From: Pollutibacter soli
GTDB taxonomy: Bacteria > Bacteroidota > Bacteroidia > Chitinophagales > Chitinophagaceae
Direction of reading: 5' to 3'
Length of the DNA stretch: 64,000 bases
NCBI GenBank assembly: GCA_029269725.1
Contig: JARJHS010000007.1
Span: 62,001 to 126,000, forward strand
The notes under the pieces are model-generated. The model saw only the letters and a program-made list of their open reading frames with translations. It did no database searches and had not been told where the DNA came from. Numbering within the stretch: the first letter of the stretch is position 1; the number at the start of each line of letters is the position of its first letter. A program made the translations under genes and the position numbers. Below, piece by piece: positions 1 to 64,000 of this stretch.

Positions 1-819
1 GGGGAACTGACTGCGGGTATTGCGCATGAGATTCAGAATCCATTAAATTTTGTAAATAATTTCAGTGAGATCAGTTCGGAATTGATAGAGGAAGCGGAGG
101 AGGCAATAGGCAGAGGATTTTCTGCCGGACAGCCAGGGCAGGAAGCAGGAAAAAAAAGCCCATTAGTCGCAGAGTTGCTTCAGGATATCAAACAGAACCT
201 GGTTAAAATAAACCATCACGGAAAACGCGCGGATGCTATTGTAAAAGGCATGCTGCAACACTCGCAATCGCGGTCGGGTACAAAGGAGCCAACGGATATT
301 AACGCATTGGTTGATGAATATTTGAGATTAGCATACATCAGTTATCAGTCAAAATATCCGGATTTTGAAGCAAAGATGGAAACCAGTTTCGATGCATCAG
401 CCGGGGAGATAAATATTATACCCCAGGATATCGGAAAGGCATTGCTGAACCTGTACAGCAACGCGTTTTATGCATGCAATCATCGTGATGTTAATCCTGG
501 AGACGCCATGCATGACGCCTCCAGGATTAACACAAGCGTCACTACCATAAACACTACGATGATAGAAAACATTATCTCGGTGTCCACCAAACGCATGGCC
601 GATAAAATTGAAATAACGGTAACGGATAACGGCGGAGGCATCGATCCGAAAATCATCGATAAAATATTTCAGCCATTCTTTACTACAAAGCCCACCGGGC
701 AGGGAACGGGTTTGGGATTAAGCCTGGCTTATGACATTATAAAAGCCTACGGCGGAAAAATCGAGGTGGAATCAAAACAGGGAGAAGGAACAGTATTTAC
801 CCTGGTACTTCCCGTGTAA
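1..819 (+). CDS. sensor histidine kinase, C-terminal part (5' end outside window)
   Basis: The reading frame is open from base 1, so only the last 272 residues are present; the sensor and gene start lie upstream. The fragment begins inside the H-box ([17 protein letters not shown], phospho-acceptor His at fragment residue 9). It continues with the second DHp helix ([17 protein letters not shown]), an N-box (ALLNLYSNAFYAC), a G1 box (VTDNGGGIDP) and the ATP lid [16 protein letters not shown], so it has a complete HATPase_c domain. The loop after the N-box is enlarged by a coding palindrome at 490-531. The DHp inter-helix loop is unusually long (GRGFSAGQPGQEAGKKSP). An ATG at 82 is in frame but would remove the phospho-acceptor His, so it is not the true start. 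Autophosphorylation is a family property; the input signal cannot be judged from this fragment. The next kinase starts 43 nt downstream. Confidence 0.93.
   Translation, partial: GELTAGIAHEIQNPLNFVNNFSEISSELIEEAEEAIGRGFSAGQPGQEAGKKSPLVAELLQDIKQNLVKINHHGKRADAIVKGMLQHSQSRSGTKEPTDINALVDEYLRLAYISYQSKYPDFEAKMETSFDASAGEINIIPQDIGKALLNLYSNAFYACNHRDVNPGDAMHDASRINTSVTTINTTMIENIISVSTKRMADKIEITVTDNGGGIDPKIIDKIFQPFFTTKPTGQGTGLGLSLAYDIIKAYGGKIEVESKQGEGTVFTLVLPV
490..531. repeat. 42-nt coding palindrome, copy 1
   Basis: The arms start GTTAATCCTGGAG and end CTCCAGGATTAAC around a CATGCATG centre. The palindrome is 42 nt, complete apart from two mismatched pairs. It lies in frame inside the kinase, in the loop between the N-box helix and the next beta strand, and adds about 14 residues (containing NPGDAMHDASRIN). 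Related copies occupy the same loop at 9433-9474 and 20904-20945. The arm bases differ between copies but stay paired. Confidence 0.85.
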
Positions 820-862
820 AAAACGGCTGAATTGTATTTGAAATGAATCAGAAAAATTACCA

Positions 863-3800
863 ATGAGAAAAGTAATAAAGGCTTTATTCATTTTATTGCT
901 TGTCGCCGCAGATGTTTATTTTGCAGATGCTCAGCAACCACAATTCAGTGTACAGATTGATGAAAAAGTACATCATTTCGGTCCGGCCTATGGATTAACA
1001 CAGGATCAGCAGGGATATATGTGGTTTGGGAGTTTTACAAAAGGACTGATCAGGTACAACGGAAAAGATTTTAAATATTTCCGTCACGCTCCGGAAAACG
1101 CAAACTCGCCAGGAAGCAATATCATCGTTTCAATGGCTGTTGATTCTTCTGGTATGATCTGGCTGGCGTTGTTTGGTGCAGGTGTTGACAGGTATAATCC
1201 GGCGACCAATACATTTACACATTTCAATTTTAGTCAGACTGATACCAACACCATCAGTTCAGATACAGTACTATCTGTTACGGCTGTACGAAATGGCGGT
1301 TTATTTATTGGTTCTTACGGTGGCGTGGACACATTCAATACGGCGACAGGAAAATTCAACAGATTTAGAAGAGAGATCAACGGAAAGCCTGTTAAAAATG
1401 AGTTCAAAACATTTAAAGTTTACGAAGATAAAAATGGTGAGATATGGTCAACGGCAGGTGATCTTTTCGAAGGTAAGCCTTCCGATAGTGGGGGTTTGTT
1501 CCGATACAATCCATCTACACGAAAGCATACTTTCTACACGGCTGATCCAAAAAATCCGGAGAGCCTGATTAATCCTAATGTATTCGCATTCTTTGAAGAT
1601 AGTCGTGGTAATTTCTGGATCGGATCAAAAGGAAATGGCCTGCATACACTTGATCGCAATACCGGGAAATTCACTCGTTATCTCTATGATTCTTTGCACC
1701 GGGAAAAATTAAGCCGGCCTCCGGTTTCTTTAAAAGATAGCAGCGACTTTATCAGTTTTATAAATGAAGATCATGCCGGAAAGCTTTGGATTGGTTCAGT
1801 TGATAACGGAATCAACTGGTATGATCCGGCAACAAAACAGCTTTATCATTATGGTTCTCTCAGAGAAAAAAAAATACAATCGGATTTCAATAAGGATACG
1901 CTTACCGGCTACAAAGAAACCGGATCATTTCGCTTTTTTCTTTCGAAGGACAGTCTCACCTGGATTACAGGAATGTCTGGAAACATTTACCTGGTCAGTT
2001 ATGGCCGTAAAACAATTCCTTACTACCCGAATAAAGAAGCCCCTAATTCCTTTTACCTCGAGCCCAACGATAGTATTCTGTGGTTTGGTACAGCAGCTGG
2101 ACTTGTGCGAAAAGATTTAAAAACCAACGTGCAGAAAACCTGGAAGCAGGATCCCAAAAATAATAACAGTATAAGCCACAATGAAATTGTAACTATTCAA
2201 CCTGATGAAAAGGGCAGGCTATATGTTGGATCACATAAAGGAGGGATGGATTTGTTTGATCCGGAAACCGGCAGCTTTACCCATTTTCGCTATGATAGTA
2301 CGCTTGGTGGATCTAAGCCGATCGATTCCATACATAACATCTTCATAGAAAACGATCAGTGGCTTTGGATGGCGGGCGAGATGGGCCTTAGTCGCTTGCA
2401 CAGACCATCGGGAAAATTCATGACCTGGCGACATAACCAGACCGATTCTAATGGAATTATCGGCCAAACGGTTTATTCTATAACAAAAGATGCTAAGAAT
2501 AATTTGTGGTTTGCGAATGAAGGAGGCGTAGATACATATGTGGAATCAGATTCAACTTTTAAACATTACCTGAAAGGATATTCTGCCCGTGCGGTAATTA
2601 AAGATGCCAGTGGAAAACTATGGGCGGGTACGGATGGCGGTTTATTTTATTTCGATGAAGCCCGCGATCATTTTGTTTCATTAGGCTCTTCGATACTCGG
2701 AACTGAAATGGATCAGATACTTAGTTTGCTGGAGGATAATGACCATAACATCTGGATCTCCACCAGTAATACCATCCTAAAATTGAGTGCCGACCGGGAG
2801 CATGTGCAAAGATTTAATGCTGACTATGGTGTACTTTCCTCCAACTGGAACTGGCTCAACAATTACAAGGCGCATGATGGACGGCTTTTCATAGGTGGAA
2901 GTAAGGGCTATTACATGTTTAATCCGGCTGAAATCAATGTGAGCAGTTCGGCACCGCTGCTGGCATTTTCACAGTTGACCATTGGCGGAACTGCAATTTT
3001 TCCGGAGAAGAATGGAATCCTGACGGAACCCATCTGGAATGCAGATCAGATCAGGCTGGCGTATAATCAGAATTCATTTTCGATAGATTTTGGGGCTGTC
3101 AATTATAATTCCAACGAAGCAATTAAATACCTCTACCGACTGGAAAATTATGATGAAGCATGGAGGGATCTCGGTACTGATCACAAAGCGTCTTTTTTTG
3201 CAGTACCACCGGGCAATTACAAACTGCGGATCAAAGCGGTGAATGGTGAGGGAACAAGTACAGAAAAAACCATCGATATCCTGATTACACCACCCTGGTG
3301 GAGAACATGGTGGGCGTATATGATGTATGCGCTGTTGGCAATGCTGGCGGGCTGGCAGATCTATTTGTACCAGAAAAGATTTATTCTTTCCAGAGAAAGA
3401 GAACGCAACAGGGAGAAAGAACTGGAACATGCGAAAGAAATTGAAAAGGCATATACCAAACTGAAATCAACGCAGGCACAACTGATACAATCTGAAAAAA
3501 TGGCTTCGCTGGGTCAACTGACGTCGGGCATTGCACATGAAATTCAGAACCCGTTGAATTTCGTGAATAATTTTTCAGAGGTTTCAGCAGAGCTGGTGAC
3601 AGAGGCAGAAGGCAGGAGGCTGGAAGCAGGAGAGAACAGCCCCGTAGTTTCAGAGTTACTTAACGATATCAAACAAAACCTTGAAAAGATAAGTCACCAT
3701 GGGAAGCGTGCAGATGGTATTGTGAAAAGCATGATGCTGCACAGCAGACCCGGAACTGAAATCAAAGAATCTGTTGATATCAATGCTCTGTGTGATAAAT

Positions 3801-4273
3801 ATCTCCGGTTGGTTTATCATGGTTTAAGAGGTAAAGACAATACACTTCAGGTTGATCTGAAAACAAATTATGATCCTTCCATCGGTGAAGTTGAACTGAT
3901 TCAGGACGATATCAGCAGAGTGTTGCTCAACATTATCGGTAATGCATTTTATGCTGTGCATGAAAAATCAAAAAGACTTTCTGCAGAAAATAAAGAAGAT
4001 GGTGTCGCATATGAACCGGCGGTGACATTGACCACAAAAAAAACAGCTAACCAGATATTGATTTCAGTAGAAGATAACGGAATAGGGATACCCGAAAATA
4101 TAATGGACAGAATATTTCAACCATTTTTTACGACGAGGCCGACCGGCCAGGGTACTGGCCTGGGTTTATCCATTTCCTATGATATCATTAAAGCACATGG
4201 TGGAGAAATAAAAGTGAAAAGCACCGAGGGGGCCGGTGCTGAGTTCACAATCATTTTAAATTCTAATCCATGA
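863..4273 (+). CDS. propeller-type (Reg_prop/Y_Y_Y) sensor histidine kinase
   Basis: The protein has 1136 residues. A Sec signal peptide covers residues 1-24 (ending FADAQ). A periplasmic beta-propeller of Reg_prop blades follows at about 30-730, with repeated units such as GNFWIGSKGNGLHTLDR. A Y_Y_Y domain lies at about 733-810 and a PPWWRTWWAY juxtamembrane motif leads into one transmembrane helix at about 815-835. The cytoplasmic part has a coiled coil, a DHp domain with phospho-acceptor His892 ([14 protein letters not shown]), an N-box near 1020 and a G1 box VEDNGIGIP near 1069. The lid reads [16 protein letters not shown], with Arg where most paralogues have Lys. In hybrid two-component systems this sensor type is usually followed by receiver and AraC domains; here the protein stops after the ATPase, so it must act through a separate receiver. 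The ligand is unknown; the fold often monitors polysaccharide breakdown products. Confidence 0.95.
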   Translation: MRKVIKALFILLLVAADVYFADAQQPQFSVQIDEKVHHFGPAYGLTQDQQGYMWFGSFTKGLIRYNGKDFKYFRHAPENANSPGSNIIVSMAVDSSGMIWLALFGAGVDRYNPATNTFTHFNFSQTDTNTISSDTVLSVTAVRNGGLFIGSYGGVDTFNTATGKFNRFRREINGKPVKNEFKTFKVYEDKNGEIWSTAGDLFEGKPSDSGGLFRYNPSTRKHTFYTADPKNPESLINPNVFAFFEDSRGNFWIGSKGNGLHTLDRNTGKFTRYLYDSLHREKLSRPPVSLKDSSDFISFINEDHAGKLWIGSVDNGINWYDPATKQLYHYGSLREKKIQSDFNKDTLTGYKETGSFRFFLSKDSLTWITGMSGNIYLVSYGRKTIPYYPNKEAPNSFYLEPNDSILWFGTAAGLVRKDLKTNVQKTWKQDPKNNNSISHNEIVTIQPDEKGRLYVGSHKGGMDLFDPETGSFTHFRYDSTLGGSKPIDSIHNIFIENDQWLWMAGEMGLSRLHRPSGKFMTWRHNQTDSNGIIGQTVYSITKDAKNNLWFANEGGVDTYVESDSTFKHYLKGYSARAVIKDASGKLWAGTDGGLFYFDEARDHFVSLGSSILGTEMDQILSLLEDNDHNIWISTSNTILKLSADREHVQRFNADYGVLSSNWNWLNNYKAHDGRLFIGGSKGYYMFNPAEINVSSSAPLLAFSQLTIGGTAIFPEKNGILTEPIWNADQIRLAYNQNSFSIDFGAVNYNSNEAIKYLYRLENYDEAWRDLGTDHKASFFAVPPGNYKLRIKAVNGEGTSTEKTIDILITPPWWRTWWAYMMYALLAMLAGWQIYLYQKRFILSRERERNREKELEHAKEIEKAYTKLKSTQAQLIQSEKMASLGQLTSGIAHEIQNPLNFVNNFSEVSAELVTEAEGRRLEAGENSPVVSELLNDIKQNLEKISHHGKRADGIVKSMMLHSRPGTEIKESVDINALCDKYLRLVYHGLRGKDNTLQVDLKTNYDPSIGEVELIQDDISRVLLNIIGNAFYAVHEKSKRLSAENKEDGVAYEPAVTLTTKKTANQILISVEDNGIGIPENIMDRIFQPFFTTRPTGQGTGLGLSISYDIIKAHGGEIKVKSTEGAGAEFTIILNSNP

Positions 4274-4406: not shown

Positions 4407-6626
4407 ATGAAAATAATTATAATCACTATTTGCATCTTATCCTTAACAGCAGGGCTATGTGCACAAAACAGAAAAATTGATAGTCTCGATAAACTAATCA
4501 GCAAAGCATCTTCGGACACTGACAGGATCAACCTGGTGGCAATAAAACTGGATATCCTGAGCGCTATCAATCTGGACACTGCTATTCAGATCGGCAATGA
4601 CTATTTGAAGCTTGCTCAACAAATAGATTACTATAAAGGCGAGTTGAAGCTAAGGCAGAAGCTGGCTTCAAATTATGCTTTCAAAGGACAATTCGCAGAA
4701 GCATCTGAACAATTGGATTTTCTGGAGAAATTTATAAAACCTGCTGAAGATTCCGCAGATATTGCTGCCCTGTATGCCAACAGGGGAATGTTGTATGGCC
4801 TTCAAAGTAAGTACGATACATCCATCTACTGGTATGAAAAGGCCATCGCTATCGACGAAATAAATGACAGATATAATCACCTGGGTACGGAATATTCCAA
4901 TATCGCTATTGCCTATCAGCAGCAATCAAATTATACGCAGGCACTTTTTTATCAGCAAAAGTCATTAAAGAAGGGTGAAGAGAATAAGAATGAAGTAAGC
5001 ATGGCTTATACCCTAATGAATATTGGAAATACCTATGATTTAATGGGAGATCCGGGGCGGGCAGAAGAAAACATACTGAAGGCAATCGACCTTGCAAAAA
5101 AGAAATCACTGGTAAATGTTGAATTATATGGATACAGCAATCTGGCCAGTATGTATACGCGGATGGCGAAATGGGAGCTGGTCTATGATAATGGGATAAA
5201 AGCCGCTACACTGGGTGCTTCCATGGGCGATAAAGGTATCGAGGCTGCGAGTTTGTCAAAAGCTGCAACGGCCCTGGTGATGCTTGGTAAATATGATGAT
5301 GCAATTGCTTTATCTGAAAAAGCCATTGCCATAGCCGATTCCACCGGCGTTCCCCTGAATGTTTACCAGGCATACACAGTGAGGGGAAATATATTCAGAG
5401 TTCAAGGTAACTATGCTAAAGCGATTCCTTTTTATGAAAAGGCTTTTAAGGCCATGGAAGGTTCAGATATCTATTCAAAAGATTTCGGTATTGTCTACAC
5501 CGAGGCTTCCGAGTGTTACGAAAAAACAGGCAATTTTAAAAAGGCATTGGAAGTGTACAAAGTAGCCAAACAAATTGTTGATTCGGTAAGTAGTAAGGAT
5601 AATATAAGGAAAGCTACGGAGCAGGCAATGAATTTTGAATTTGATAAAAAACAGGAATTGCTGGCAGCCAAACAAAAAGCAAGAGATGAAGTGTCTGCTA
5701 CGAAACAGATTGCCCTTGCTGTTGGATTGGCGCTCACATTAATTCTCGCCGTTGTTGCCCTTGCAGGGTTTAGAAACAAACAGAAAGCAAATACCTTGCT
5801 TCAGGTTCAGAAAAATGAGATTGAAAATACATTGGCATTATTAAAAGCCACGCAATCCAAGTTGATTCAGTCGGAAAAAATGGCTTCACTGGGTGAACTC
5901 ACGGCAGGCATTGCCCATGAAATTGAAAACCCTTTGAATTTTGTAAACAATTTTGCGGAAGTAAGTAGCGAATTGATCGATGATATGAAGGCAGAGATCG
6001 CAAATAAAAAATTTAGTGAGGCTGTGGAAATTGCTGATGACCTGAAGCTGAATCTGCAAAAGATCAATCATCACGGAAAACGAGCGGACCTGATTGTAAA
6101 AGGAATGCTGCAGCACAGCAGAAGTACAAAGGGGGATAAAGAGCGCACGAACATCAATGCGCTGGTGAATGAATATGTTAAGCTGGCTTATCACGCATAC
6201 CGGGCAAAGGATAATGCATTTGAAGTGAAACTAGTGACCAATTTTGACCCTGCAATTACTGATATGGAAATAGCGCCTCAGGACATTGGGCGTGTGCTGT
6301 TGAACATACTCAACAATTCGTTTTATGCCGTTGCTGAAAAAAAGAAGACAGCGGCGGAAGGTTTTCAACCAACCGTATCCGTTAGTACGAGAAGGACGGG
6401 GCAAACAGTAGAAATTCAGGTGACCGATAATGGCAACGGTATCCCGAACGAGATAGTTGAAAAAATATTCCAGCCTTTTTTCACAACCAAACCGACTGGC
6501 CAGGGTACAGGCCTGGGATTATCACTGGCTTATGATATTGTGAAGGCACATGGCGGTGAGATAAAAGTGAACAGTTCGGGAAATCAAGGGAGTTCTTTTT
6601 TGATAATTCTGAACGGCAGTCTTTGA
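4407..6626 (+). CDS. TPR-containing membrane sensor histidine kinase
   Basis: The protein has 739 residues. The signal peptide is residues 1-20 (ending GLCAQ). A periplasmic helical region of TPR repeats covers about 50-395, with units such as [20 protein letters not shown]. One transmembrane helix lies at about 434-454, followed by a coiled coil and the kinase core with phospho-acceptor His504. The H-box reads HEIENPLNF; this paralogue alone has Glu instead of Gln after HEI. N-box ([13 protein letters not shown]), G1 (VTDNGNGIP) and the standard lid are intact, so the enzyme should be active. The DHp inter-helix loop is of the short, acidic/basic type ([18 protein letters not shown]). The gene lies 133 nt after the previous kinase and directly before the soluble kinase at 6670. 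TPR sensors bind peptides or partner proteins in general, but no ligand can be named. Confidence 0.94.
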
Positions 6627-6669
6627 CTGAGTTGGTTTTTTATTGACTAAAGAAGATAAAACTAAAAAA

Positions 6670-9600
6670 ATGCAGGTGAACGGTCGAGAGGCGGAAGAGA
6701 TTAAGCTGGTGTACGAGTCATTCATTAACAGCTTGTTTGGTGCAGAGCTTGAAAGATATGCATCCTTCCTGAGCGAGGATTACCGGCTGATTGGAACGAC
6801 TGAGGCCGAAGTATTTTTTTCGAGACAGGAAGCGGTTGATTTTCTGGAGAAAACAGCAGATCAGCTTTCCGGTAACATAAAGCGAAGAAACGCCAGCCTG
6901 TATGTAGAATGGGTTGATGAGTTGGTCTTTATCACCGACCTTTTCGATGCATGGGTTCGTGTGGAAGAAGTCTGGATATTTTATTCAAAAGCGAGAGTAA
7001 CATCCTGGATGAAAAAGGATACAGGGAACTGGAAAATGATCCAGCAACATTTTTCAATACCTGATTCAAAAGCGCAGGAAGGTCAGACCATAGGGTTGGA
7101 AAAAATCTCGCAGGAGAATCTGGAGCTGAGAGATGCAATTAAGCGAAGGACTGTGGAGCTCGAACAAAAAAACCGCGAGCTGGAAGTTGAGGCATCACTC
7201 GAGCGGGTAAGGGCAGGAGCGATGGGAATGCAGAAGCGGGAAGATATGCTAGGCATCTGTCGTACCATATCAGAGGAATTGACAAAACTTGGAATCAAAG
7301 AAATCAGAAATGTGCAGACTGCCATATTCTACCCGGAAAAAGGCAACTATCTGAATTATGAATATTATCAGAAACACAACAGGGAAATTTTCACTGAAGT
7401 GGATTTTGCAAGCGAGCGTACACATAAGGACCAGAAAGATTTTGCAAACACGATGCTGAGTGGGGAGGGAGCTTTTTATACTAAAATATTTTCGGGTGAA
7501 GAATTGAAGCAATGGTACAGTTACCAGTTAGGAACGGAACAGTTGGCCGATCAATATCTATTGAATGCGCATTCACTTAATTATTACTGGTTTTCCCTGG
7601 GGGCAATTGCCATTGGAATTTCTGCCTATTACCCATTGACTGAAGAAGAATTACAATTATTCAACCGTTTCCGGAATGTTTTCAATCTTTCTTTTCGTCG
7701 TTATCTCGATATTGAAAAAGCAGAAGTACAGGCCCGGGAGGCGCAAATTGAAGCGTCGCTGGAAAGAGTGCGCAGCCGTTCTCTCGGCATGTTGAAAAGT
7801 GATGAACTCAGCGATGTAATCCACGTCATTTATAAACAATTGATTCATTTGAGTATTCCCATTTCGCATGCTGGTTTTGTAATGGACTATAAAGAGCGCG
7901 ATGACCACCGGATATGGATAGCTGATGAATTTGGAACACCTGCGCAGGTTACTGTTCCCTATTTTGATGCGATCTATTATAACCAGTTCAATGAAGCAAA
8001 AAAAAGTGGCTTGAACTTTTTTACTACCCGGCTGAACTTCGAAGAAAAAAATAAATTTTACCAGGATCTTTTCAAATATATCCCTGGTTTTCCTGAGGAG
8101 TCGAAAGTTAAAATACTCAGTGAACCTGGATTTACAATATCGACTGTGTTGCTGGAAAATGTAGCCCTGTACATTGAGAATTTCACAGGCATTCCTTTTT
8201 CTGATGAGGAGAATTCTGTCTTAATGCGATTCGGCAAGGTATTTCAGCAAGCCTATACACGTTTTCTCGATCTGCAGAAAGCGGAAGCCCAGGCAAGAGA
8301 AGCAAACATCGAAGCAGCGCTGGAGAAAGTACGAAGCAGAACGATGGCAATGCAACGCAGTGATGAACTGGCAGCCAGTGCTGCCGTTATGTTTCAACAG
8401 ATCAAAAGCCTTGGCATAGAAAGCTACACCAGCGGATTTAACATCTGGGACGAAGACAAAGATTCATTGACTTCATGGATGAGCAATCCGACAGGCGCTC
8501 TTAACCCGCCATTCATCATGCCGGCGCGCGAATATGATCAGCATAACAGATTTTATGAAGCATGGAAAAATGGAGAACAATTTATTGTAGATGATCTTAC
8601 CGGGGACCGGGCCAGGGCACATTATAAATACCTCCGCTCTTTTCCGTTGCTGGAAAAATCTTTTGCGATGGCAGAAGAAGCAGGTATCCGAACACCTGAA
8701 AGGCAGGTACACAATGTGGTGTTTTTTTCTCATGGCTACCTGTTGTTTGTAACGCTCGAACCAAAACCTGAATGGCAGGATTTGTTCAAACGTTTCGGAC
8801 AGGTGTTTCAGCAAACTTATACCCGCTTTCTCGATCTTGAGAAAGCAGAAGCGCAAACCATCAGGGCAGAACAGGATCTGATGGAAATAAAAGCGGCAAG
8901 AAAAAAAGCAGAGGATACTTTGCTTGAGTTGCAGGCAACGCAAAAGCAATTGATACAGGCGGAGAAGATGGCGAGCCTTGGTGAGCTTACTGCAGGTATT
9001 GCGCATGAGATCCAGAATCCCTTGAATTTCGTGAATAATTTTTCCGAGGTGAGTGCTGAGCTTACGGAAGAGGCAGAAGCCAGAAGGCAGGAGGCAGGAG
9101 AGAACAGCCCTTTAGTTACTGAGTTGCTGAACGATATCAAACAGAATCTTTCTAAGATAGGCCATCATGGAAAAAGAGCAGACGCGATTGTGAAAAGTAT
9201 GCTTCAGCATTCACAGTCGAGATCAGGCACTAAAGAGCTAACGGAAATAAAAGAGCTCACAGACGAATACCTGAAGCTTGCGATACACGGTTATAAAGCA
9301 AGGAACAAATCTTTTGAAGTGACGATCAACACCAGTTATGATGAATCAATTGGAAAAATCAATATAGTTCCGCAGGAAATCGGCAGGGTATTACTGAACT
9401 TGTTTAACAACGCGTTTTATGCCTGTGCTGCAGTCAATCGCAGAGACGCCATGCTTGGCGTCTCTGCGATTGACAACAACACTGGAAATATTGTTGCCGT
9501 CATGACCAGGCGGGTTGGGAATGCGGTGGAAATAACGGTAACGGATAACGGCAATGGCATTGATCCCAAAATCATAGATAAAATATTCCAGCCGTTTTTT

Positions 9601-9741
9601 ACGACAAAGCCTACCGGGCAGGGAACAGGGCTGGGATTGAGTTTGGCCTATGATATCATAAAATCACATAATGGAGAGCTGAAAGTAAAATCAGAAGTGG
9701 GGAAAAAAACAACATTTGTCATTCAGCTTCCAATTTCATAA
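6670..9741 (+). CDS. soluble SnoaL-like plus triple GAF-like sensor histidine kinase
   Basis: No signal peptide or transmembrane helix is visible, so the kinase is probably cytoplasmic. Residues ~5-135 look like a SnoaL/NTF2-like fold (YASFLSEDYRLIG, VTSWMKKDTGNWKMIQQH). Three GAF-like modules follow at about 165-345, 345-531 and 531-719. Each starts with a helix such as IEASLERVRSRSLGM and ends with FGKVFQQAYTRFLDLQKAEA. The kinase core follows, with phospho-acceptor His779. The loop after the N-box carries a coding palindrome (9433-9474). I place the start at ATG 6670; a TTG at 6643 is in frame and 16 nt after the preceding stop, so the protein could be nine residues longer. The modules are the same type as the 12 copies in the giant kinase at 28856. 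Ligand unknown; the SnoaL-like domain on a kinase is uncommon. Confidence 0.92.
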   Translation: MQVNGREAEEIKLVYESFINSLFGAELERYASFLSEDYRLIGTTEAEVFFSRQEAVDFLEKTADQLSGNIKRRNASLYVEWVDELVFITDLFDAWVRVEEVWIFYSKARVTSWMKKDTGNWKMIQQHFSIPDSKAQEGQTIGLEKISQENLELRDAIKRRTVELEQKNRELEVEASLERVRAGAMGMQKREDMLGICRTISEELTKLGIKEIRNVQTAIFYPEKGNYLNYEYYQKHNREIFTEVDFASERTHKDQKDFANTMLSGEGAFYTKIFSGEELKQWYSYQLGTEQLADQYLLNAHSLNYYWFSLGAIAIGISAYYPLTEEELQLFNRFRNVFNLSFRRYLDIEKAEVQAREAQIEASLERVRSRSLGMLKSDELSDVIHVIYKQLIHLSIPISHAGFVMDYKERDDHRIWIADEFGTPAQVTVPYFDAIYYNQFNEAKKSGLNFFTTRLNFEEKNKFYQDLFKYIPGFPEESKVKILSEPGFTISTVLLENVALYIENFTGIPFSDEENSVLMRFGKVFQQAYTRFLDLQKAEAQAREANIEAALEKVRSRTMAMQRSDELAASAAVMFQQIKSLGIESYTSGFNIWDEDKDSLTSWMSNPTGALNPPFIMPAREYDQHNRFYEAWKNGEQFIVDDLTGDRARAHYKYLRSFPLLEKSFAMAEEAGIRTPERQVHNVVFFSHGYLLFVTLEPKPEWQDLFKRFGQVFQQTYTRFLDLEKAEAQTIRAEQDLMEIKAARKKAEDTLLELQATQKQLIQAEKMASLGELTAGIAHEIQNPLNFVNNFSEVSAELTEEAEARRQEAGENSPLVTELLNDIKQNLSKIGHHGKRADAIVKSMLQHSQSRSGTKELTEIKELTDEYLKLAIHGYKARNKSFEVTINTSYDESIGKINIVPQEIGRVLLNLFNNAFYACAAVNRRDAMLGVSAIDNNTGNIVAVMTRRVGNAVEITVTDNGNGIDPKIIDKIFQPFFTTKPTGQGTGLGLSLAYDIIKSHNGELKVKSEVGKKTTFVIQLPIS
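9433..9474. repeat. 42-nt coding palindrome, copy 2
   Basis: The arms start GTCAATCGCAGAGACGCC and end GGCGTCTCTGCGATTGAC, with one mismatched pair near the centre. It is in frame and gives residues VNRRDAMLGVSAID in the loop after the N-box of the kinase at 6670-9741. Arm bases that differ from copies 1 and 3 are matched by the complementary change in the opposite arm. Confidence 0.88.
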
Positions 9742-9746
9742 ATAAG

Positions 9747-15199: not shown

Positions 15200-15352
15200 A
15201 CTGTATTGAAATATAAACGACCGATGAAGAATTTAAAAGTAACAAGATAGATCCGGAGAATTTCGATGCTTTATAGAAGATAAAAAGAATGAAACGAAAC
15301 TCACACCTTACCCATGTCCCGTCAGAGAAATCCTGTAGGTAGAACGAAAAAC

Positions 15353-19125: not shown

Positions 19126-19181
19126 AAATGCAAAGGAAACCGGACAGAATCTATAACTTAAACATCTATAGGTCGCAGAAC

Positions 19182-40045: not shown

Positions 40046-40062
40046 TTCTTAATGATTTGTGT

Positions 40063-50841: not shown

Positions 50842-50851
50842 AGATGCTTCA

Positions 50852-54996: not shown

Positions 54997-55747
54997 AACC
55001 ATCCTACTCTCCGCAATAACTTGTCCGGACTTCTTTCGCCTTGCCTTGTAAACTCTACTTTATTTTCCGCCTCTTTAAATCCTGTATTTCCGCTTTGACC
55101 TGTAAGCTCCATAGCTACATTCTTTAGTTTAGGGGCGCCGTTGAAAAATGCGAATCCTGTCCGATATTGAATTAAAATGGAATTTTGGTGTCAGCGTCTG
55201 GGCGCATTTTAGAGTCAAAGCGTGAAATGCCTTGTACCTGGTCGACTTTGGATTTCGGTTTAGACTTCGCATCCTACTATTCCGGATTTCAGCAAAATGC
55301 AGCATTTCAACGAACAACGACCAACGACCAACGAAGAACGAACAACGAACAACGATGAACACCAACTCTCAACTTAAAACTCCAATTACTTCAGGTCCGC
55401 TTTTCCGCACTTCAGGACTTCATAACAATGCTTCGGGAAATAATACCCCATTTAAAGCGTCACGCCACTGTTTTTCATGCATCATTTGTATGTGCAATGA
55501 TATCTAATGAGCAGGATAAAGACTCTGCATAAGACCAATTTCTTGCCTGGATTTATTTCAATGCTCAGCCACCGCATTGAGAATTCAGGTGTGGAGAAAA
55601 CAAAAAAACATTTTCATTTTTTCTGACTTCGATCCGGGATGAAATAGAAAGAACACAGCGATCAGCATGTTTGCCGTGCTCCCACTTCATCATTTTCAGT
55701 TTTCGAAGTCAGCATTCTTTACCTCAATATTTTCAAAAAAATTTAGT
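54997..55747. other. 751-nt intergenic region
   Basis: No supported gene or RNA is present. The region contains the 7-nt tandem repeat at 55308-55356. Open frames across the repeat on either strand have repetitive, low-complexity translations and are not credible. The right part, up to the SusC start at 55748, is AT-rich (a run of A's near 55601-55608 and T's near 55735-55745) and should contain the promoter of the second SusC/SusD pair. Confidence 0.6.
55308..55356. repeat. 7-nt tandem repeat (7 units)
   Basis: Seven consecutive heptamers: CAACGAA, CAACGAC, CAACGAC, CAACGAA, GAACGAA, CAACGAA, CAACGAT. This is a short variable-number-type repeat in the gap before the second SusC gene. The function is unknown and strain-to-strain length variation is possible. 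Confidence 0.85.
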
Positions 55748-58700
55748 ATGAAGTATGTACTAATGCTAGCTGCCATTTTGCTTATTGGCTTTACCTCAGC
55801 ATTTTCGCAAACGGTTATTACGGGCCGGGTTATTGATGCAAGGGACAGTACTGCAGCCCTGGGAGTTTCGGTCGGTGTTAAAGGAACCAATCTGGGCACG
55901 ACTACCGACGGTAATGGCGCGTTCCGGCTTTCCGTACCAGCAGATGCGAAAACACTTGTTTTCAGCAGTGCTGAATTCATTACGCGGGAGATAAATATTA
56001 ATCCAGATCGAACAGACTATTCTGTGATGCTCGAGAGGACATCTACTGCATTGCAGGAAGTGGTGGTGTCCGTAGCCTATGGGGAACAAAACAGGAAAAA
56101 AATAACTGGAGCAGTTGGGAAATTACAGGGGAACGCCGTAGCCAATATTCCCATGCCCACGGTAGAGCAGATGCTGCAAGGTAAAATTGCCGGACTTCAA
56201 TCTGTATCTCCTTCCGGTCAGCCGGGTTCATTCCAGCAGATCCGCATTCGTGGTATTGGATCCATTAATGCTTCTGCTGAGCCATTGTATGTGATCGATG
56301 GTGTTCCGGTAAATTCCGGTGATGTTTCGGGGCTGACCAATTCCAGTAACCTTCTCGCTACCATCAACGCAAACGATATCGAAAGTATATCAGTTTTAAA
56401 AGATGCTGCATCGGCATCCATTTATGGTTCAAGAGCAGCGAACGGTGTTATACTGATCACCACAAAAAAAGGACGCGCGGGTAAAGCTGTTGTACGCGTG
56501 GATGCTGAATTTGGTAAAAATGACATTGCATTTTTACCTGATGCCGCGGTACCGCTAAACAGGGAACAATTTAAAGAACTGACTACTGAAGGCGTACTTA
56601 ATATCGGCGGTTCTCCCGCCGATGCTGAAGATGTCCTGAACAGTTTGGGATACAACACCACCGCAAATTACGACTGGCTTGACCTGGTGAAACGACAAGG
56701 ACAACAGCAGCAGATCAATGCCTCCGTGTCAGGCGGAGATGCAAAAACAACATTCTATCTATCGGGTGGATACTTCAAACAAATGAGTGTAGTCATCGGC
56801 TCTGATTTTAAAAGATACTCTGCTCAGCTTTCGTTAAAGCATAATGTCGACAAACATTTTTCCGTAGGAACCAACATCAATATTTCCACATTCAGACAAA
56901 CGGGAGAAACGGAAAGTGGATTTTTCAGAAATCCAATGCTTGCAGCAATGGCTTTGTTACCCACCCAGGAAGCATTTAATGCCGATGGTTCACCCAATTA
57001 TGATCCGACAGTGTTTTACCAGATATTTAATCCGCTGGCAATACAGCAATATGATCGCCAGCAGAACAATACTCTTAAAGGACTGGGTTCAGTGTTTGCA
57101 GAATATAAAATACTTCCAAACCTGAAATTAAGCTCACGGTATGGGGTAGACTATAACAACATTGAAGAAATATTTTACAATAATCCTTTTTTCGGTGATG
57201 CGGCAACTGCGGATCCTGGAACATCAGGCGCTTTTTATAACAATTACACCCGTCTGTACAATTGGGTCTGGACCAACCTCGTCGATTATAATTTCAAAGC
57301 ATGGAATGATAAACTCGACGGCTCTGTCACTGCTGGTTACGAAGCGCAAAAATCAAAAGCTTATGTACAGGCAGCCAATGGAACAGGAGTTCCGCAAACC
57401 ACCTTACTCAGGTATCCTTCTGTGGCAACACCGATATCTGTTGGTGTGAGCGGATCTGACTATGCGTTTACATCTTTGTTGTCAAAAGCACAGATCGGTT
57501 ATCTCGATAAATATATTCTTTCAGGTAGCATCCGTCGCGATGGATCATCGCGTTTTGGATCTGATACACGTTACGGAACTTTCTGGAGTGTCGGTGCCGC
57601 ATGGAATGTTGACCAGGAAAATTTTTTACAGGGTATCAAATTTTTATCAGCACTCAAGTTACGTGCTTCCTATGGTGTTAATGGTAATGCGGGTATCGGC
57701 AACTACGACTCACGCGCATTGTATTCTTTTAATGGTTCCTATAACGGACTGCCAGCAAGCGTTCCGGGAAGTGTAGGTAATCCCGGATTGACATGGGAAC
57801 AGAACAAGCCATTTGACATCGGACTGGAAGCAGGAGTTTTCAAGAACCGGGTAACAGTAGAGTTGGACTGGTATATCCGTAAAACAGAAAGGCTGCTCCT
57901 GGATGAACCACTTTCGCAAACCAGCGGATTTAATTCATTCAAGAACAATATCGGCGCAATGGAAAACAAAGGATTTGAAATTACACTGAACGCGATACCT
58001 GTGCAAACCAGAAACTTCACCTGGCAGATCGGCTTTAATGCAGCATGGAACAAGAATAAAATTACCAAATTACGTGATGGTGTAAACGAAATTATCAATG
58101 ATCCTTATATCCAGCAGGTGGGTAAAGACGTACAATCAATTTATACTTACCTGTGGGCGGGAGCAAATCCTGAAACCGGTGATCCGGAATGGTATACTGA
58201 TGCGTCGAAAGGAAGCAGGACAAGTGATTTCGGAGCAGCAGAACGTGCTATTTACGGCAGCCTTTCACCCAAAGGTTTCGGAGGAGTGAACACATCGCTT
58301 ACTTATAAGTTTGTTTCCCTGAGTGCGCAGCTGAATTATCAGTATGGAAATTATGTGTTTGACTCATGGGCATTTCTTTTTCTTGGTGATGGAGCTTTTG
58401 GTAGTCTCAATCAATATACAAAGCAATTACAGCGGTGGCAGAAACCTGGAGATGTTACCACGGTGCCCAGGTATGATTTTTTCAATTCAACAGGATCAAA
58501 TATTAATTCAACCAGGTATTTCAATAAAGGAGATTATCTCCGTTTAAGGAATGTCACTTTAAGTGTTGATCTTCCACAGAACATTATCAGCAAACTACAC
58601 CTGACGAAACTGAGTTTATATGTGCGCGGCACCAACCTCTGGACGAAAGCATTTGATGATCAGATAACCATCGACCCGGAGCAACCGATCAACGGTACAA

Positions 58701-58759
58701 GCGATATACAGTTTTATATTCCTAAATCAGTAACGTTCGGAGTAAATATTCAATTATGA
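55748..58759 (+). CDS. SusC/RagA-family TonB-dependent outer-membrane transporter
   Basis: The start at ATG 55748 gives a signal peptide of ~21 residues (ending TSAFSQ). An in-frame ATG at 55667 would add 27 residues before it. The protein is 1003 residues. It has a carboxypeptidase-regulatory-like domain (~22-100, GRVIDARDSTAALGVSVGVK). The TonB-box region is LQEVVVSVAYGEQNRKKITGA-like; a plug follows with MLQGKIAGLQSVSPSGQPG and PLYVIDGVPVNSGD, and a beta-barrel ends PKSVTFGVNIQL. It would import an oligomeric nutrient together with the SusD at 58792. The SusC stop overlaps an upstream SusD ATG candidate (58756, ATGA), so translation is probably coupled. It is only distantly similar to the SusC at 37073, so the substrates probably differ. 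No catabolic enzyme lies nearby to suggest one. Confidence 0.93.
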   Translation: MKYVLMLAAILLIGFTSAFSQTVITGRVIDARDSTAALGVSVGVKGTNLGTTTDGNGAFRLSVPADAKTLVFSSAEFITREININPDRTDYSVMLERTSTALQEVVVSVAYGEQNRKKITGAVGKLQGNAVANIPMPTVEQMLQGKIAGLQSVSPSGQPGSFQQIRIRGIGSINASAEPLYVIDGVPVNSGDVSGLTNSSNLLATINANDIESISVLKDAASASIYGSRAANGVILITTKKGRAGKAVVRVDAEFGKNDIAFLPDAAVPLNREQFKELTTEGVLNIGGSPADAEDVLNSLGYNTTANYDWLDLVKRQGQQQQINASVSGGDAKTTFYLSGGYFKQMSVVIGSDFKRYSAQLSLKHNVDKHFSVGTNINISTFRQTGETESGFFRNPMLAAMALLPTQEAFNADGSPNYDPTVFYQIFNPLAIQQYDRQQNNTLKGLGSVFAEYKILPNLKLSSRYGVDYNNIEEIFYNNPFFGDAATADPGTSGAFYNNYTRLYNWVWTNLVDYNFKAWNDKLDGSVTAGYEAQKSKAYVQAANGTGVPQTTLLRYPSVATPISVGVSGSDYAFTSLLSKAQIGYLDKYILSGSIRRDGSSRFGSDTRYGTFWSVGAAWNVDQENFLQGIKFLSALKLRASYGVNGNAGIGNYDSRALYSFNGSYNGLPASVPGSVGNPGLTWEQNKPFDIGLEAGVFKNRVTVELDWYIRKTERLLLDEPLSQTSGFNSFKNNIGAMENKGFEITLNAIPVQTRNFTWQIGFNAAWNKNKITKLRDGVNEIINDPYIQQVGKDVQSIYTYLWAGANPETGDPEWYTDASKGSRTSDFGAAERAIYGSLSPKGFGGVNTSLTYKFVSLSAQLNYQYGNYVFDSWAFLFLGDGAFGSLNQYTKQLQRWQKPGDVTTVPRYDFFNSTGSNINSTRYFNKGDYLRLRNVTLSVDLPQNIISKLHLTKLSLYVRGTNLWTKAFDDQITIDPEQPINGTSDIQFYIPKSVTFGVNIQL

Positions 58760-58791
58760 GAACGGGAAATTTCATCTTAAAAAGAAAAGAC

Positions 58792-60216
58792 ATGAAAGCT
58801 CAGAATAAAATTTTTAATATCGTTGCCAGCGTGCTGATCCTGGTTATTTTTTCCGTTTCCTGCAGTAAGGATTTTTTGGAACTGGAGCCATATAGTGATG
58901 TTTCTGCAGACATAGCCATTTCCAATGAAGCCGATATGGGTGCCGCACTGAATGGAGCCTATGGAACCCTGAGGAACAGTAATCTTTTCGGAAGGACACT
59001 GCCTTTATTTGGAGACCTGATTGCCGACAATGTATATATCAGTGCCATCAACAGTAACCGCTATCTTGATTTTTTCCAGGTAAACTATACGGTGAACAAT
59101 ACCAATGCATCAGCCATATGGCAGAACGCATATACGACTATCCTTCGTGCGAATAATATCATCAATAGCGAACTTGCCAGTTCCGGGAAGGTAGATCAGT
59201 ACCGCGCTGAGGCCAGGGCAATCCGGGCATTGATGTATTTTGAATTGGTAAAACATTATGCAAAACCTTACCAGGTGGATCCATCAGGTTTAGGTGTTCC
59301 GATTGTTCTTACTTACGATCCGAAATTGAAACCGGAAAGAAACAGCATCGCTGAAGTGTATGCACAAATTGAAGACGATCTTTCAAAAGCAATTCCGGAT
59401 TTATCGGTTGATAATTCTTCAGGTTTTTTCACCAGCTACGCAGCAAAGGCTTTGCTTGCACGTTTGTACCTGTTTAAGCATGAATGGTCAAAGGCACTGA
59501 CCACAAGCCAGGATATCATCGATAATTCGGGATTCACACTGGTACCGGCACAAGGTGTTGTAGATTTCTGGAAACGAAACACACCAAGAACAGATAAGGT
59601 TGAAGTGTTATTTGAAGTTGCTTTTGATGCGGTGCAGAATGCCGGCATTGATGCGCTGGATTATTTTTACGATCAGCAAGGTTATGGAGATGCATTGGCC
59701 GCAGACGCATTCTATGTAATGTTTTCTGCCACTGATGTACGTCGGCAGCTTTTTCTCACCAGCAGTCCTATTCGCGGCGATGTGAAAGTGGTAAACAAAT
59801 ATCCCAACAGCAGCAGTGCTGATCCCGATGAGTTTAAAGTACTGCGGTTGTCCGAGGTTTATCTTACTGCAGCTGAAGCTGCATTTCAGTCCGGAAACGA
59901 ATCGCTTGCATTGGATTATCTCAATGAGCTTGTAGCTGAACGTGATCCCGCTTTTGCAGGATATAGTTCATCCGGCCAGGCCTTGTTCAATGATATACTC
60001 ACAGAACGAAGGAAAGAACTTGCTTTTGAAGGTCAGCGTTACTGGGATCTTGCGCGGTATAATCTTCCGGTGAACCGTATCAACATGTCAGCGAATTATC
60101 CCGGCAATGTCCCACTGACAATTGCAGCTGATAATTTCCGTAGAATTTTACCGATCCCGCAAACGGAACTGGATGCAAACCCCAATATACGTGATCAGCA
60201 AAATCCGGGGTATTGA
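58792..60216 (+). CDS. SusD/RagB-family nutrient-binding lipoprotein
   Basis: From ATG 58792 the 474-residue protein has a compact lipoprotein signal (hydrophobic IVASVLILVIFSVSC, lipobox SVSC). An alternative ATG at 58756 overlaps the SusC stop (ATGA) and would add 12 mostly polar residues; coupling favours it, signal shape favours 58792. SusD hallmarks include FLELEPYSDVSADIAISNE near the N-terminus, the helix AEARAIRALMYFELVKHYAK, LRLSEVYLTAAEAAFQSGN and a C-terminus ending QQNPGY. The lipoprotein should sit at the cell surface as the lid of the upstream SusC. A 376-nt repeat-rich gap follows, which likely ends the operon. Confidence 0.92.
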   Translation: MKAQNKIFNIVASVLILVIFSVSCSKDFLELEPYSDVSADIAISNEADMGAALNGAYGTLRNSNLFGRTLPLFGDLIADNVYISAINSNRYLDFFQVNYTVNNTNASAIWQNAYTTILRANNIINSELASSGKVDQYRAEARAIRALMYFELVKHYAKPYQVDPSGLGVPIVLTYDPKLKPERNSIAEVYAQIEDDLSKAIPDLSVDNSSGFFTSYAAKALLARLYLFKHEWSKALTTSQDIIDNSGFTLVPAQGVVDFWKRNTPRTDKVEVLFEVAFDAVQNAGIDALDYFYDQQGYGDALAADAFYVMFSATDVRRQLFLTSSPIRGDVKVVNKYPNSSSADPDEFKVLRLSEVYLTAAEAAFQSGNESLALDYLNELVAERDPAFAGYSSSGQALFNDILTERRKELAFEGQRYWDLARYNLPVNRINMSANYPGNVPLTIAADNFRRILPIPQTELDANPNIRDQQNPGY

Positions 60217-60234
60217 GGAAAGACGAAAAGTTAT

Positions 60235-60342: not shown

Positions 60343-60389
60343 CCCGAAGGGCGGGTATGTAGATGGGTAGGAAATAGCCTGAAAGAGAA

Positions 60390-60547: not shown

Positions 60548-60592
60548 TATAAACTTTCTTTTTATTCTTACCTTTCTGTACACTCCCGTTGT

Positions 60593-61621
60593 ATGTTTCG
60601 AAATTCAATATTGCTGCTATTTGCCTGCCTTTGCGTGTTACCTGTGTGTGCACAGAAGGCGATAAAAGAAAATATGTCGGCTGCTGCACAAAAGTTCCTG
60701 GCAGCCCTTTCCGCTGACCAGAAACAGAAAGTACAATTTGCTTTTACTGATGATGAAAGATTTCATTGGCATTATGTACCGATGGACAGGAAAGGCATTC
60801 CCTTGAGAGAGTTGAGCACAACTCAACGCGAAGCGGGGTTAGCATTACTGCGTATCGCGTTGAGTGATTCCGGTTATGGAAAAACAATCTCTATCGTGCA
60901 GTTGGAGAATGTGCTTCGCGAAGTGGAGGGCAGATCCGCAAATGATGATTACCGTCATCCGGGGAAATATTATTTCTCCCTCTTCGGAAATCCTTCAGCA
61001 GATAACATCTGGGGCTGGCGTTTTGAAGGTCACCACGTCGCCTTTAATTTTTCATCCAGAAACGGGAAACTGTTTTCAGGAACCCCGTCATTTCTTGGAT
61101 CAAATCCGGGTATTGTATTATCTGGTCCTGAAAAAGGAAAACAGATACTTAAAAGTGAAACGGAAACGGGACTGGCGCTGGTGAGATCCCTGGATGCCAG
61201 TCAGCAATTAAAAGCAGTGATTCAAACCAAGGCCCCTGCAGAAATCGTCACCGGGAACAGTCGCATTGCCATGATCAGCGATCCTAAAGGAATTTTGTAT
61301 AGCGAACTTTCATCGTCTCAACAAAAACTACTTCTTGAATTATTAAGCATCTATATCCAACGATATACAAAAGCGCTCGCTTTGGCAATGATGGGCGACA
61401 TCGAAAAGGCCGGACTCAGTAATCTCCGTTTTGCATGGGCGGGTGAATTAGCTACCGGTCCCGGCCACCCGCATTATTATCGCATCCACGGCCCGACGAT
61501 TATAATCGAATATGATAACACGCAAAACAATGCCAACCATGTGCATACCGTAGTCCGTGATCTGAAAAATGATTTCGGAGGCGATGAACTATTGACGCAT
61601 TACAAACACGAGAAACATTGA
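60593..61621 (+). CDS. DUF3500-family exported protein
   Basis: The 342-residue protein has a signal peptide (1-20, ending LPVCAQ). The body matches DUF3500 in my recognition: FAFTDDERFHWHYVPMDRKG near residues 49-68, then DDYRHPGKYYFSLFGNPSA, WGWRFEGHHVAFNFS, and a C-terminal RFAWAGELATGPGHPHYYRIHGP followed by EYDNTQNNANHVHTVVRD. The many conserved His, Trp and acidic residues suggest a metal or ligand site, but the biochemical function of the family is not established. It is separated from the SusD gene by the repeat cassette and from the next gene by 220 nt, so it is probably transcribed alone. Confidence 0.88.
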   Translation: MFRNSILLLFACLCVLPVCAQKAIKENMSAAAQKFLAALSADQKQKVQFAFTDDERFHWHYVPMDRKGIPLRELSTTQREAGLALLRIALSDSGYGKTISIVQLENVLREVEGRSANDDYRHPGKYYFSLFGNPSADNIWGWRFEGHHVAFNFSSRNGKLFSGTPSFLGSNPGIVLSGPEKGKQILKSETETGLALVRSLDASQQLKAVIQTKAPAEIVTGNSRIAMISDPKGILYSELSSSQQKLLLELLSIYIQRYTKALALAMMGDIEKAGLSNLRFAWAGELATGPGHPHYYRIHGPTIIIEYDNTQNNANHVHTVVRDLKNDFGGDELLTHYKHEKH

Positions 61622-62249: not shown

Positions 62250-62334
62250 TAAATTTGATTCCCACTAATTCGGCTTATTTTCCAATTTCATGTTAGCGGT
62301 CAGGTCAGTGATTTCGCAATCGTTTATGTCTGTT

Positions 62335-64000
62335 ATGAGAAAGTTCCTTTTCCTTTTATGCCTTTTCCCGGCCTTGTATGCGACCTCACAATATAAAGTG
62401 CGGTTTATTTTAAATGAAAATACAGCCATTCCCCACGACAGCATTTACATAACTGGCACCTTCAATAACTGGGATTCTACTGCGAATAATAAGTACCTGA
62501 TGCAACCGCTGGGAAATCGTCAATATGGCATAACGCTCGATTTGCCGGCAGGTGATATGAGGTATAAATTTCATCGCGGGAGCTGGCTCAGTGTGGAAAA
62601 AGAACTGGACGGTAACGAGGTGTTTGATCGTAATGTCAAAATTAATTCTGATACTACGTTAACTGCCAGGGTGGATAACTGGAGGGACCAGTTATTTGTT
62701 GATAAGAAACTCAAGTTGCAGCGCGAAACATCAGATACCGGTCGCGTGAAATTACTGGATGCCATTGCCAGGAATTACGGCTTCTTTTCTGAGTTTTTCA
62801 ATATCGATTCCGCACAATATTATGCACAGGAAACCCTGAAATTGTACCAGGAGATCAGTGCATCTGATGAAACCAGTTTATGGGAAGACCTGGGATCATC
62901 GCGGGAAGTGTTGGCTAATTTATTCAGCTCGCTGGGCAACTATCCGAGGGCGTTAGAGCTACGCTTTGAGAATCTGCGCGTGGCGGAAAAAAGAAATGAT
63001 CCGTTATATCTAGCTGATGCGTTCCGATCTATATCCAATACCTACCTTTCTATAAAAGATTATCCAAACGCACTCAGGTATGCACGACTTAGTTATACCA
63101 CACTGAAGTCACTGCCACCAGATACAGAGGCTTACCAGCATATGAAATGGCTCTCTGATTACCAGTTGGCCGAATGCTTTTACGGATTGAATGATCTTGA
63201 TTCTTCGCTGTTTTATATATCCCAGCCTGTCAATGGTAACTTACTCACGGCAACCTCCGGAATGGCTTTTAAATCGTTGTTGCTGGGTGATATCTACCGG
63301 TCAAAAAATCAACCGGACTCCGCTTTCAGAAATTACAGGAATGCAATTTTCTACAATGCTTCTGTGTACTCAGCCGTCGTTAATGGTATGTCGCTGCTGG
63401 GTATTTCAAAGTTATTCCGCAATGCAGGGCAGCCGGATTCAGCCATTGCATATGCACGATCTGCATTCTCGGTATATGAGAATAATTTATCTAATCTGCA
63501 GAGCTGGGGCGAGAACAAAGATGCATATGTAGCTGAAGTGGTGTTTACTCTATCAGAAATGTACAAAGCCGGAGGCCAGCCAGACAGTGCATACAAGTAT
63601 CTGCAAATGGCAACGGTGCTGAAGGATAGTCTTTACAATAATGAAAAGCTCCGCCAGTTTCAGGTCCTTGACTTTAATGAAACGGCACGTGTACAGCAAC
63701 TCGAGCAACAGGAAAGAATCACAGCAGAGCGATATCGCAACCGTATAAAAATTTATGGACTGATCGGTGGCCTCGTTGCGTTTTTGGTAATTGCGTTTGT
63801 TCTTTACCGTAATAACCGTCAAAAACAACAATCCAACCAGGAACTGACCGAACAAAAAGGCAAACTGGAAGAAACACTGCAGGAATTGAAATCGACGCAG
63901 GCACAATTGATCCAGAGCGAAAAAATGGCTGGTCTTGGTGAACTTACCGCAGGCATTGCACATGAAATTCAGAACCCTTTGAATTTTGTAAACAATTTTT
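62335..64000 (+). CDS. TPR sensor histidine kinase with N-terminal carbohydrate-binding-like domain (3' end outside window)
   Basis: ATG 62335 gives a signal peptide of 19 residues (ending YATSQ); ATG 62326 in frame would add three residues. Residues ~20-105 look like an early-set/CBM48-type (glycogen-recognition-like) fold: SIYITGTFNNWDST, then PAGDMRYKFHRGSW. TPR helices follow at ~130-440 (for example ALRYARLSYTTLKSLPP; QPDSAFRNYRNAI). One transmembrane helix lies at ~473-494 ending [10 protein letters not shown], followed by a coiled coil and the H-box with phospho-acceptor His543 ([16 protein letters not shown]). The window ends 13 codons later, so the rest of DHp and the ATPase are not visible but presumably follow. 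It is the only TPR kinase here with this extra domain, which suggests a carbohydrate or protein-surface ligand. Confidence 0.9.
   Translation, partial: MRKFLFLLCLFPALYATSQYKVRFILNENTAIPHDSIYITGTFNNWDSTANNKYLMQPLGNRQYGITLDLPAGDMRYKFHRGSWLSVEKELDGNEVFDRNVKINSDTTLTARVDNWRDQLFVDKKLKLQRETSDTGRVKLLDAIARNYGFFSEFFNIDSAQYYAQETLKLYQEISASDETSLWEDLGSSREVLANLFSSLGNYPRALELRFENLRVAEKRNDPLYLADAFRSISNTYLSIKDYPNALRYARLSYTTLKSLPPDTEAYQHMKWLSDYQLAECFYGLNDLDSSLFYISQPVNGNLLTATSGMAFKSLLLGDIYRSKNQPDSAFRNYRNAIFYNASVYSAVVNGMSLLGISKLFRNAGQPDSAIAYARSAFSVYENNLSNLQSWGENKDAYVAEVVFTLSEMYKAGGQPDSAYKYLQMATVLKDSLYNNEKLRQFQVLDFNETARVQQLEQQERITAERYRNRIKIYGLIGGLVAFLVIAFVLYRNNRQKQQSNQELTEQKGKLEETLQELKSTQAQLIQSEKMAGLGELTAGIAHEIQNPLNFVNNF

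Follow-up and report, generated by a model that had tools for sequence, protein, structure and literature searches.

A sensor kinase array with one shared transmitter core in Pollutibacter soli and three adjoining receivers as candidate common partners

We analysed a stretch of 64,000 nucleotides from the Pollutibacter soli genome (the window, G000:C35:62001-126000), which carries a long array of sensor histidine kinases. G000 denotes the genome itself (6.12 Mb in 37 contigs); coordinates prefixed with a contig name refer to that contig, and all others refer to the window, whose position 1 is C35:62001. Seventeen kinases of a single subfamily lie in window 1-64000, all on the + strand, 15 of them complete and 2 cut by the edges, a count given in the preliminary description and borne out by the listing of open reading frames (ORFs), by domain scans, and by a core profile. 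This profile (A2), made from 14 of the 15 complete cores in the window, covers the DHp and ATPase domains. It scored 37 proteins at 366 to 460 bits, followed by a 108-amino-acid (aa) remnant at 115 bits; a search of the whole genome also found 37, and a profile from foreign genomes only again gave 37 proteins over 200 bits (lowest, 320; next, 129.5). On these profile scores, the 37 kinases form one discrete subfamily. The core thus extends well beyond the window: 29 kinases, all on the + strand, lie within C35:30529-165448 (135 kb), where 0.8 would be expected by chance, and the other 8 are on contigs C23 and C34. Other genes, about 9.5 kb of them, separate the first kinase of the array from the rest, and the right part of the array is broken by a block on the opposite strand (C35:138986-155295). 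We regard the window as the middle of a probable 136-kb signal-integration locus (C35:30529-166908).

A genome-wide search placed no REC match in the window, and the nearest matches on the contig are at C35:37270 and C35:126926. Pfam Hpt gave no match in the window or on C35, and no DNA-binding domain was found at an E value of ≤0.001 in the 26 window ORFs scanned, out of 55 listed with at least 100 aa. The earlier statement that no receiver, HPt, or DNA-binding protein is encoded holds within these bounds but, for receivers, fails just outside, and the seeming lack of a response regulator is an artefact of the window edge because receivers adjoin the array there. RR1, a stand-alone receiver of 124 aa (C35:126920-127294), starts 248 bp after the edge-cut kinase at C35:124290-126671; RR2, a single-domain REC (C35:165470-165865), starts 21 bp after the last kinase of the array, which is closed by RR3, a REC followed by a PF00211 class III cyclase domain (C35:165865-166908). 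Instead of one response regulator beside each kinase, there are three for all of them.

The genome holds 94 REC matches, and only 5 of these are no more than 10 kb away from a core kinase; those within 500 bp are exactly RR1 to RR3, and the two others are about 3 kb off. Queried against the whole genome, RR1 scored RR1, RR2, and RR3 at 267, 191, and 106 bits (next, 52). A foreign receiver profile, run on 776 collected frames of the genome, ranked the same three on top (194, 194, and 144 bits), with two multi-REC proteins next at 102 and 90. As judged from these scores, the genome has no matching receiver subfamily other than that of RR1 to RR3. By inspection, all three keep the acidic pair, the phospho-acceptor Asp, the Thr/Ser, and the Lys, which we take to have their usual functional roles. 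The catalytic domain of RR3 matches PF00211 at an E value of 5.7e-22, and its K, D, and GD positions align with the solved adenylyl cyclase chain 5x4t_A; K and D are presumably the adenine-selecting residues, and D residues those for metal. RR3 is therefore a predicted class III adenylyl cyclase fused to a REC, in a genome with 17 cyclic nucleotide monophosphate (cNMP)-binding matches. An HPt-like intermediate is not evident from Pfam Hpt in the whole genome, a Spo0B-like fold being outside the reach of that model; one match exceeds the cut-off, inside a 740-aa frame on C23, and one on C32 falls below it.

The sensors of the 17 window kinases are of at least three unrelated types, as had been proposed: 5 are propellers (Reg_prop/Y_Y_Y), 10 are TPR domains, and 2 are tandem GAF-like arrays. 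The propeller kinases are located at 863-4273 (1136 aa, propeller plus Y_Y_Y), 15314-18736 (1140 aa), 25076-28474 (1132 aa), 41634-45077 (1147 aa), and 45191-48631 (1146 aa). Two of the TPR sensors were assigned from whole genes reaching past the window edges, at 1-819 (5' end cut; C35:60768-62819, 683 aa) and 62290-64000 (cut by the right edge; whole gene, 793 aa). The others are at 4407-6626 (739 aa), 9964-11931 (655 aa), 11941-13998 (685 aa), 19089-21257 (722 aa, a weak TPR-like match with an E value of 0.0014), 21267-23288 (673 aa), 48736-50841 (701 aa), 50759-52942 (727 aa for the longest frame, the true start probably lying further in), and 53023-54996 (657 aa). The kinase at 6643-9741 (1032 aa) combines SnoaL_3 with tandem GAF-like units, and that at 28856-36538 (2560 aa) carries at least 11 tandem units of about 190 aa. 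The repeat unit of this 2560-aa kinase has no Pfam assignment, and related units recur in 6643-9741 and in the SnoaL plus GAF-like sensor of C35:43448-48778. Modelled with 17 related units (predicted local distance difference test score, 87), the unit shows a predicted long helix at its end and is predicted to resemble GAF domains (a single match at an E value of ≤0.001, template modelling score of ~0.5).

Elsewhere on C35, propeller sensors belong to the kinases at 30529, 52464, 56272, and 135288, TPR sensors to those at 127522 and 156184, and a 7TMR-DISM sensor to that at 159304, which the kinase at 163097 resembles in its sensor (27.5%, BLAST). The domain scan covered all core kinases other than C34:199168, C34:353119, C34:363335, C34:365480, and C35:163097; it recognised no sensor in C35:131400 and C35:161691, and Pfam at an E value of 1 gave no convincing new domain in five kinases with unassigned sensors. 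No Pkinase match was found by domain scans in any of the 17 window kinases. Some inputs appear beside FIST genes: a sensorless 345-aa kinase (C35:51424-52461) is preceded by two of them (C35:48815-49972 and C35:50087-51226), and a third (C35:130178-131422) lies directly upstream of the kinase at C35:131400. Each of these three occupies one frame, unlike the FIST gene of the window at 14007-15160 (+ strand), which is split into overlapping frames for part of FIST_N (14007-14408, 133 aa) and for the FIST_N end plus FIST_C (14393-15160, 255 aa). The protein of C35:50087-51226 matched no solved structure by sequence up to an E value of 1.

Several other genes interrupt the array, namely two SusC/SusD pairs (37025-41631 and 55667-60216), an amino acid permease gene (23325-24665), and a DUF3500 gene (60593-61621). 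On the opposite strand, C35:140454-143546 encodes a histidine kinase that matches cNMP-binding domains and a fusion of a REC with a pyridine-nucleotide oxidoreductase, which may form a cyclic AMP (cAMP)-responsive pair. Two short frames in the array that retain pieces of the kinase ATPase domain (C35:60229-60771 and C35:155687-156013) are probably decayed members.

The kinase and receiver subfamilies also keep company in other genomes. Named genomes were searched with RR1 and RR2 only, blind to kinases, and 80 loci were kept of at least 552 confirmed; among the matches listed, those nearest to the query that come from named records belong to Chitinophagaceae and other Bacteroidota. A core kinase occurs in 73 of the 80 foreign loci; in 66 of them one lies upstream on the strand of the receiver and ends no more than 1.5 kb from it, and in 4 the only one is downstream. 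The usual order is kinase(s), REC, and REC-cyclase, with varying kinase number; a REC-cyclase is found in 54/80 loci and FIST genes in 5/80. The loci of Hymenobacter perfusus (L104) and Mucilaginibacter gilvus (L102) are examples with just one or two kinases. Six second receivers were scanned, hand-picked (five because no cyclase was tagged), and their outputs are SpoIIE in Ignavibacterium, Chlorobiaceae, Rhodohalobacter, and KSB1, PAS-AAA_35 in Scytonema, and a cyclase in Mesorhizobium. In L118, L125, L130, L131, and L127, from distant lineages, a SpoIIE phosphatase or PAS-AAA_35 thus replaces the cyclase on a related receiver.

A phylum sample comprised 158 genomes at least 90% complete, our own included, with cut-offs of E ≤ 1e-60 for the kinase core and E ≤ 1e-20 for the receiver. 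Both occur in the same 34 genomes and neither in the other 124 (Fisher, 2e-35, a statistic that ignores the kinship of genomes and depends on cut-offs we chose from the gap in our own genome). Up to 16, 26, and 8 candidates per genome were scored in the phylum searches, so that kinase counts are lower bounds and absences rest on these candidates; eight genomes recounted over all candidates were unchanged. Carriers have 1 to 5 receivers (two in 20/34) and 1 to 37 kinases, and the kinase sets next in size were found in two relatives (22 and 11 members) and in the phylum sample (12 members). Among 40 relatives, our own included, the kinase is present in 5 and the receiver in 6, and all five kinase carriers are among the six. 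Even among members of the genus the system is patchy: of the 24 others searched (G001 to G024), 2 carry it, and in the other 22, mostly drafts of 2 to 3 Mb, neither kinase nor receiver was found at the cut-offs.

The cores had been described as almost the same, which overstates their likeness: pairwise identity over the 37 averages 58% (range, 45 to 85%), and only DHp helix 1 approaches invariance. In its first 46 columns, the commonest residue occupies 88% of rows on average, compared with 49% in the following loop, 80% in helix 2, and 66% in the ATPase part. Positions H+7, H+11, and H+12, which we take from EnvZ rewiring work to be specificity positions, are N, N, and F in 37/37 core kinases and in 0/20 other proteins found by the HisKA motif among the collected frames. 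The catalytic boxes of the core kinases are kept.

We infer phosphotransfer, convergence, and cAMP output from the features present in the sequence, namely the array, the discrete subfamilies, their co-occurrence and gene order, the identity of the putative specificity residues, and the largely intact catalytic motifs. Probably, the 37 kinases with their unrelated sensors converge on RR1 to RR3, and if so, it is very probable that cAMP is the output. The 29 kinases of the array and the 8 elsewhere would, through one common DHp surface, phosphorylate the same REC domains of RR1, RR2, and RR3; phosphorylation of RR3 would set cAMP production, the signal being read by certain proteins among those with cNMP-binding matches, and the single-domain RR1 and RR2 may act as common carriers of phosphoryl groups, as buffers, or as competitors for them. 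Sequence evidence lends good support to the suggestion in the preliminary description of convergence on one or few receivers, because three receivers match 37 kinases, both subfamilies share the same 34 genomes, and the putative specificity residues are identical.

Besides the chosen cut-offs and the disregard of kinship, several observations weigh against convergence. Identical residues across paralogues, as read from sequence, do not prove a shared partner, and the eight kinases on other contigs are far from any matching receiver. Of the foreign loci, three (L097, L129, and L147) have the core kinase further off and seven lack it; in L076 and L133 the receiver lies within 301 bp of a contig end, and L123, L134, L140, L146, and L150 are true misses with enough flank. 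One relative (G033) has a receiver match and no kinase. A control from the same contig, the REC-oxidoreductase, occurs in 21/158 genomes; its overlap in 9 of these counts in favour of the complete match of kinase and receiver, yet it is itself somewhat above chance (P = 0.015). Genomes with more kinases also tend to have more receivers, a moderate correlation (Spearman, 0.61) that makes some sub-pairing of kinases and receivers possible. The proposed covariation check gave no interface signal: in mutual information with average product correction between kinase and receiver columns of 68 adjacent pairs, the top pairs were scattered. A lineage-level switch was seen between kinase H+3 (Q/K) and receiver residue 17 (26 Q-E, 16 K-R, 4 Q-R, 2 K-E, and 20 others); it may follow phylogeny only and was not counted as evidence.

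The array kinases could instead have private partners, each sending its signal to a separate receiver elsewhere in the genome, out of the remaining 91. Most of them have no adjoining receiver and the genome is rich in RECs, but the invariant N/N/F, the matched receiver subfamily of only three, and the shared genome distribution of the two subfamilies make such an arrangement unlikely. Slightly less probable still is that shared dimer helices allow heterodimers and cross-phosphorylation, with computation at the kinase level before the receivers. The near invariance of DHp helix 1 would permit such mixing, and C34_363335, C35_127522, and C34_353119, whose glycine boxes deviate, might need an active partner; however, the glycine boxes are unaltered in 34/37 kinases, and the differing sensor folds would be expected to hinder mixing.

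The likeness of the cores appears to be old. Fourfold-site identity between cores averages 0.315, compared with 0.279 in codon-matched shuffles, and exceeds the 99.9th percentile in 5/406 core pairs; because synonymous sites are near saturation, the likeness would have been kept by selection and not by recent copying. In the five most similar core pairs, the sensors are 23 to 37% identical where alignable, and one pair shows no relation. One neighbouring pair has 85% core and 32% sensor identity, and the non-neighbours at 6643 and 19089 share 74% core identity, but no relation between their sensors could be detected. Placed in a tree together with 128 foreign cores, the 37 fall into 10 pure groups, two of them of size 11, one of these two being weakly supported (0.356), which suggests a lineage expansion mixed with older lines. 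In the neighbours 50759-52942 and 53023-54996, the cores are identical over a stretch of 125 bp and reach a fourfold identity of 0.63, with sensors 32% identical, and the pair probably underwent a recent gene conversion limited to the core; as a general cause of core likeness, gene conversion is rejected on the fourfold sites, this one pair standing out. An 83-bp "exact match" between 48736-50841 and 50759-52942 proved to be the mere overlap of both frames. That recent copying or conversion made the cores alike with no selection for partner sharing is thus very improbable, being largely refuted by the synonymous sites, with the divergent sensors also against it, even though neighbours are more alike (Mantel rho, -0.32; 0/2000 permutations), mean fourfold identity lies slightly over shuffles, and one probably converted pair exists. 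The cores would mostly be old paralogues kept alike at the protein level, with at least one recent exchange, which is the pattern to be expected if every core has to fit one common receiver.

In the textbook view, each two-component system is an insulated pair, and the specificities of paralogous kinases should drift apart. In the present genome, dozens of old paralogues with widely differing sensors have apparently retained a single surface towards the receiver, and the array offers both a natural experiment on selection for sharing versus insulation and a directly testable model of how many signals may be integrated into one second messenger; in addition, orphan-looking Bacteroidota kinases gain a predicted partner. 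More tentatively, with the chances slightly against it, the locus may exemplify a widespread and undescribed plug-in integrator, in which interchangeable kinases with one transmitter serve a fixed pair of REC and REC-output protein. Sensors would be gained by adding genes before the same receiver, the output would be swapped by clade (cyclase, SpoIIE phosphatase, or PAS-AAA), and the single-domain REC would act as a phosphoryl buffer summing kinase and phosphatase activities, with 37 inputs to a cAMP hub in the present genome.

The preliminary description held that no system of this form had been described; this stands at most for scale and composition, since many-to-one signalling is textbook knowledge. 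In the open-licence literature searched, no title or opening of an abstract described a kinase array with this REC/REC-cyclase pair, whether as module or at this scale. The kind is thus already known, and what was not found in that literature is the scale, the fixed REC/REC-output pair, the swapped outputs, and the close co-occurrence. In a survey of 44,008 two-component genes (2010; PMC3018481), 1.7% belonged to tetrads, the largest class given in the part of the table consulted. An array of orphans would have no receiver in or beside it, whereas RR1 to RR3 adjoin this one. Class III adenylate cyclases linked to RECs have the domain order of RR3, REC and then PF00211; here such a protein usually lies next to a single-domain REC and to kinases of one subfamily, whose number varies. 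The HstK dual Ser/Thr-His kinases of cyanobacteria find a likeness in a Pkinase-AAA-GAF-histidine kinase protein of Scytonema (L127), which has the present core and lies just upstream of a matching receiver (L128 has a frame of equal length, a comparison of length only). The window kinases gave no Pkinase match, and L127 has a REC-PAS-AAA_35 in place of a REC-cyclase.

The FIST genes invite comparison with NosP-NosK-NosR, in which, according to PMC12570481, the FIST protein NosP is a haem sensor of nitric oxide encoded beside a sensorless kinase. A FIST gene beside a sensorless kinase, together with a receiver with second-messenger output, is common to both systems, the two FIST genes before C35:51424-52461 providing the instance here. 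The output domain there is of the cyclic di-GMP type, whereas RR3 has a class III cyclase, and in the present array pairs of FIST and kinase genes make up no more than part of the inputs.

In the Spo0 phosphorelay, the path to Spo0A includes a Spo0B step. No matching HPt-like intermediate was found here with Pfam Hpt in the genome, and a REC-cyclase takes the place of the relay to Spo0A. Many-to-one integration is exemplified in PMC12471899 by KinA to KinE with Spo0F and by LuxN and LuxP acting on LuxU. As in KinA-KinE/Spo0F of Bacillus subtilis, several kinases with different sensors and homologous phosphotransfer domains are present here. Receivers match them by sequence, location, and co-occurrence, but these are two single-domain RECs plus a REC-cyclase in place of one, and their sharing is presumed. 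The systems differ in that five kinases operate there as opposed to 37 here and in that most kinase genes here are clustered with the receivers. Set beside these, the array seems to carry the use of many sensors for a single switch to an extreme.

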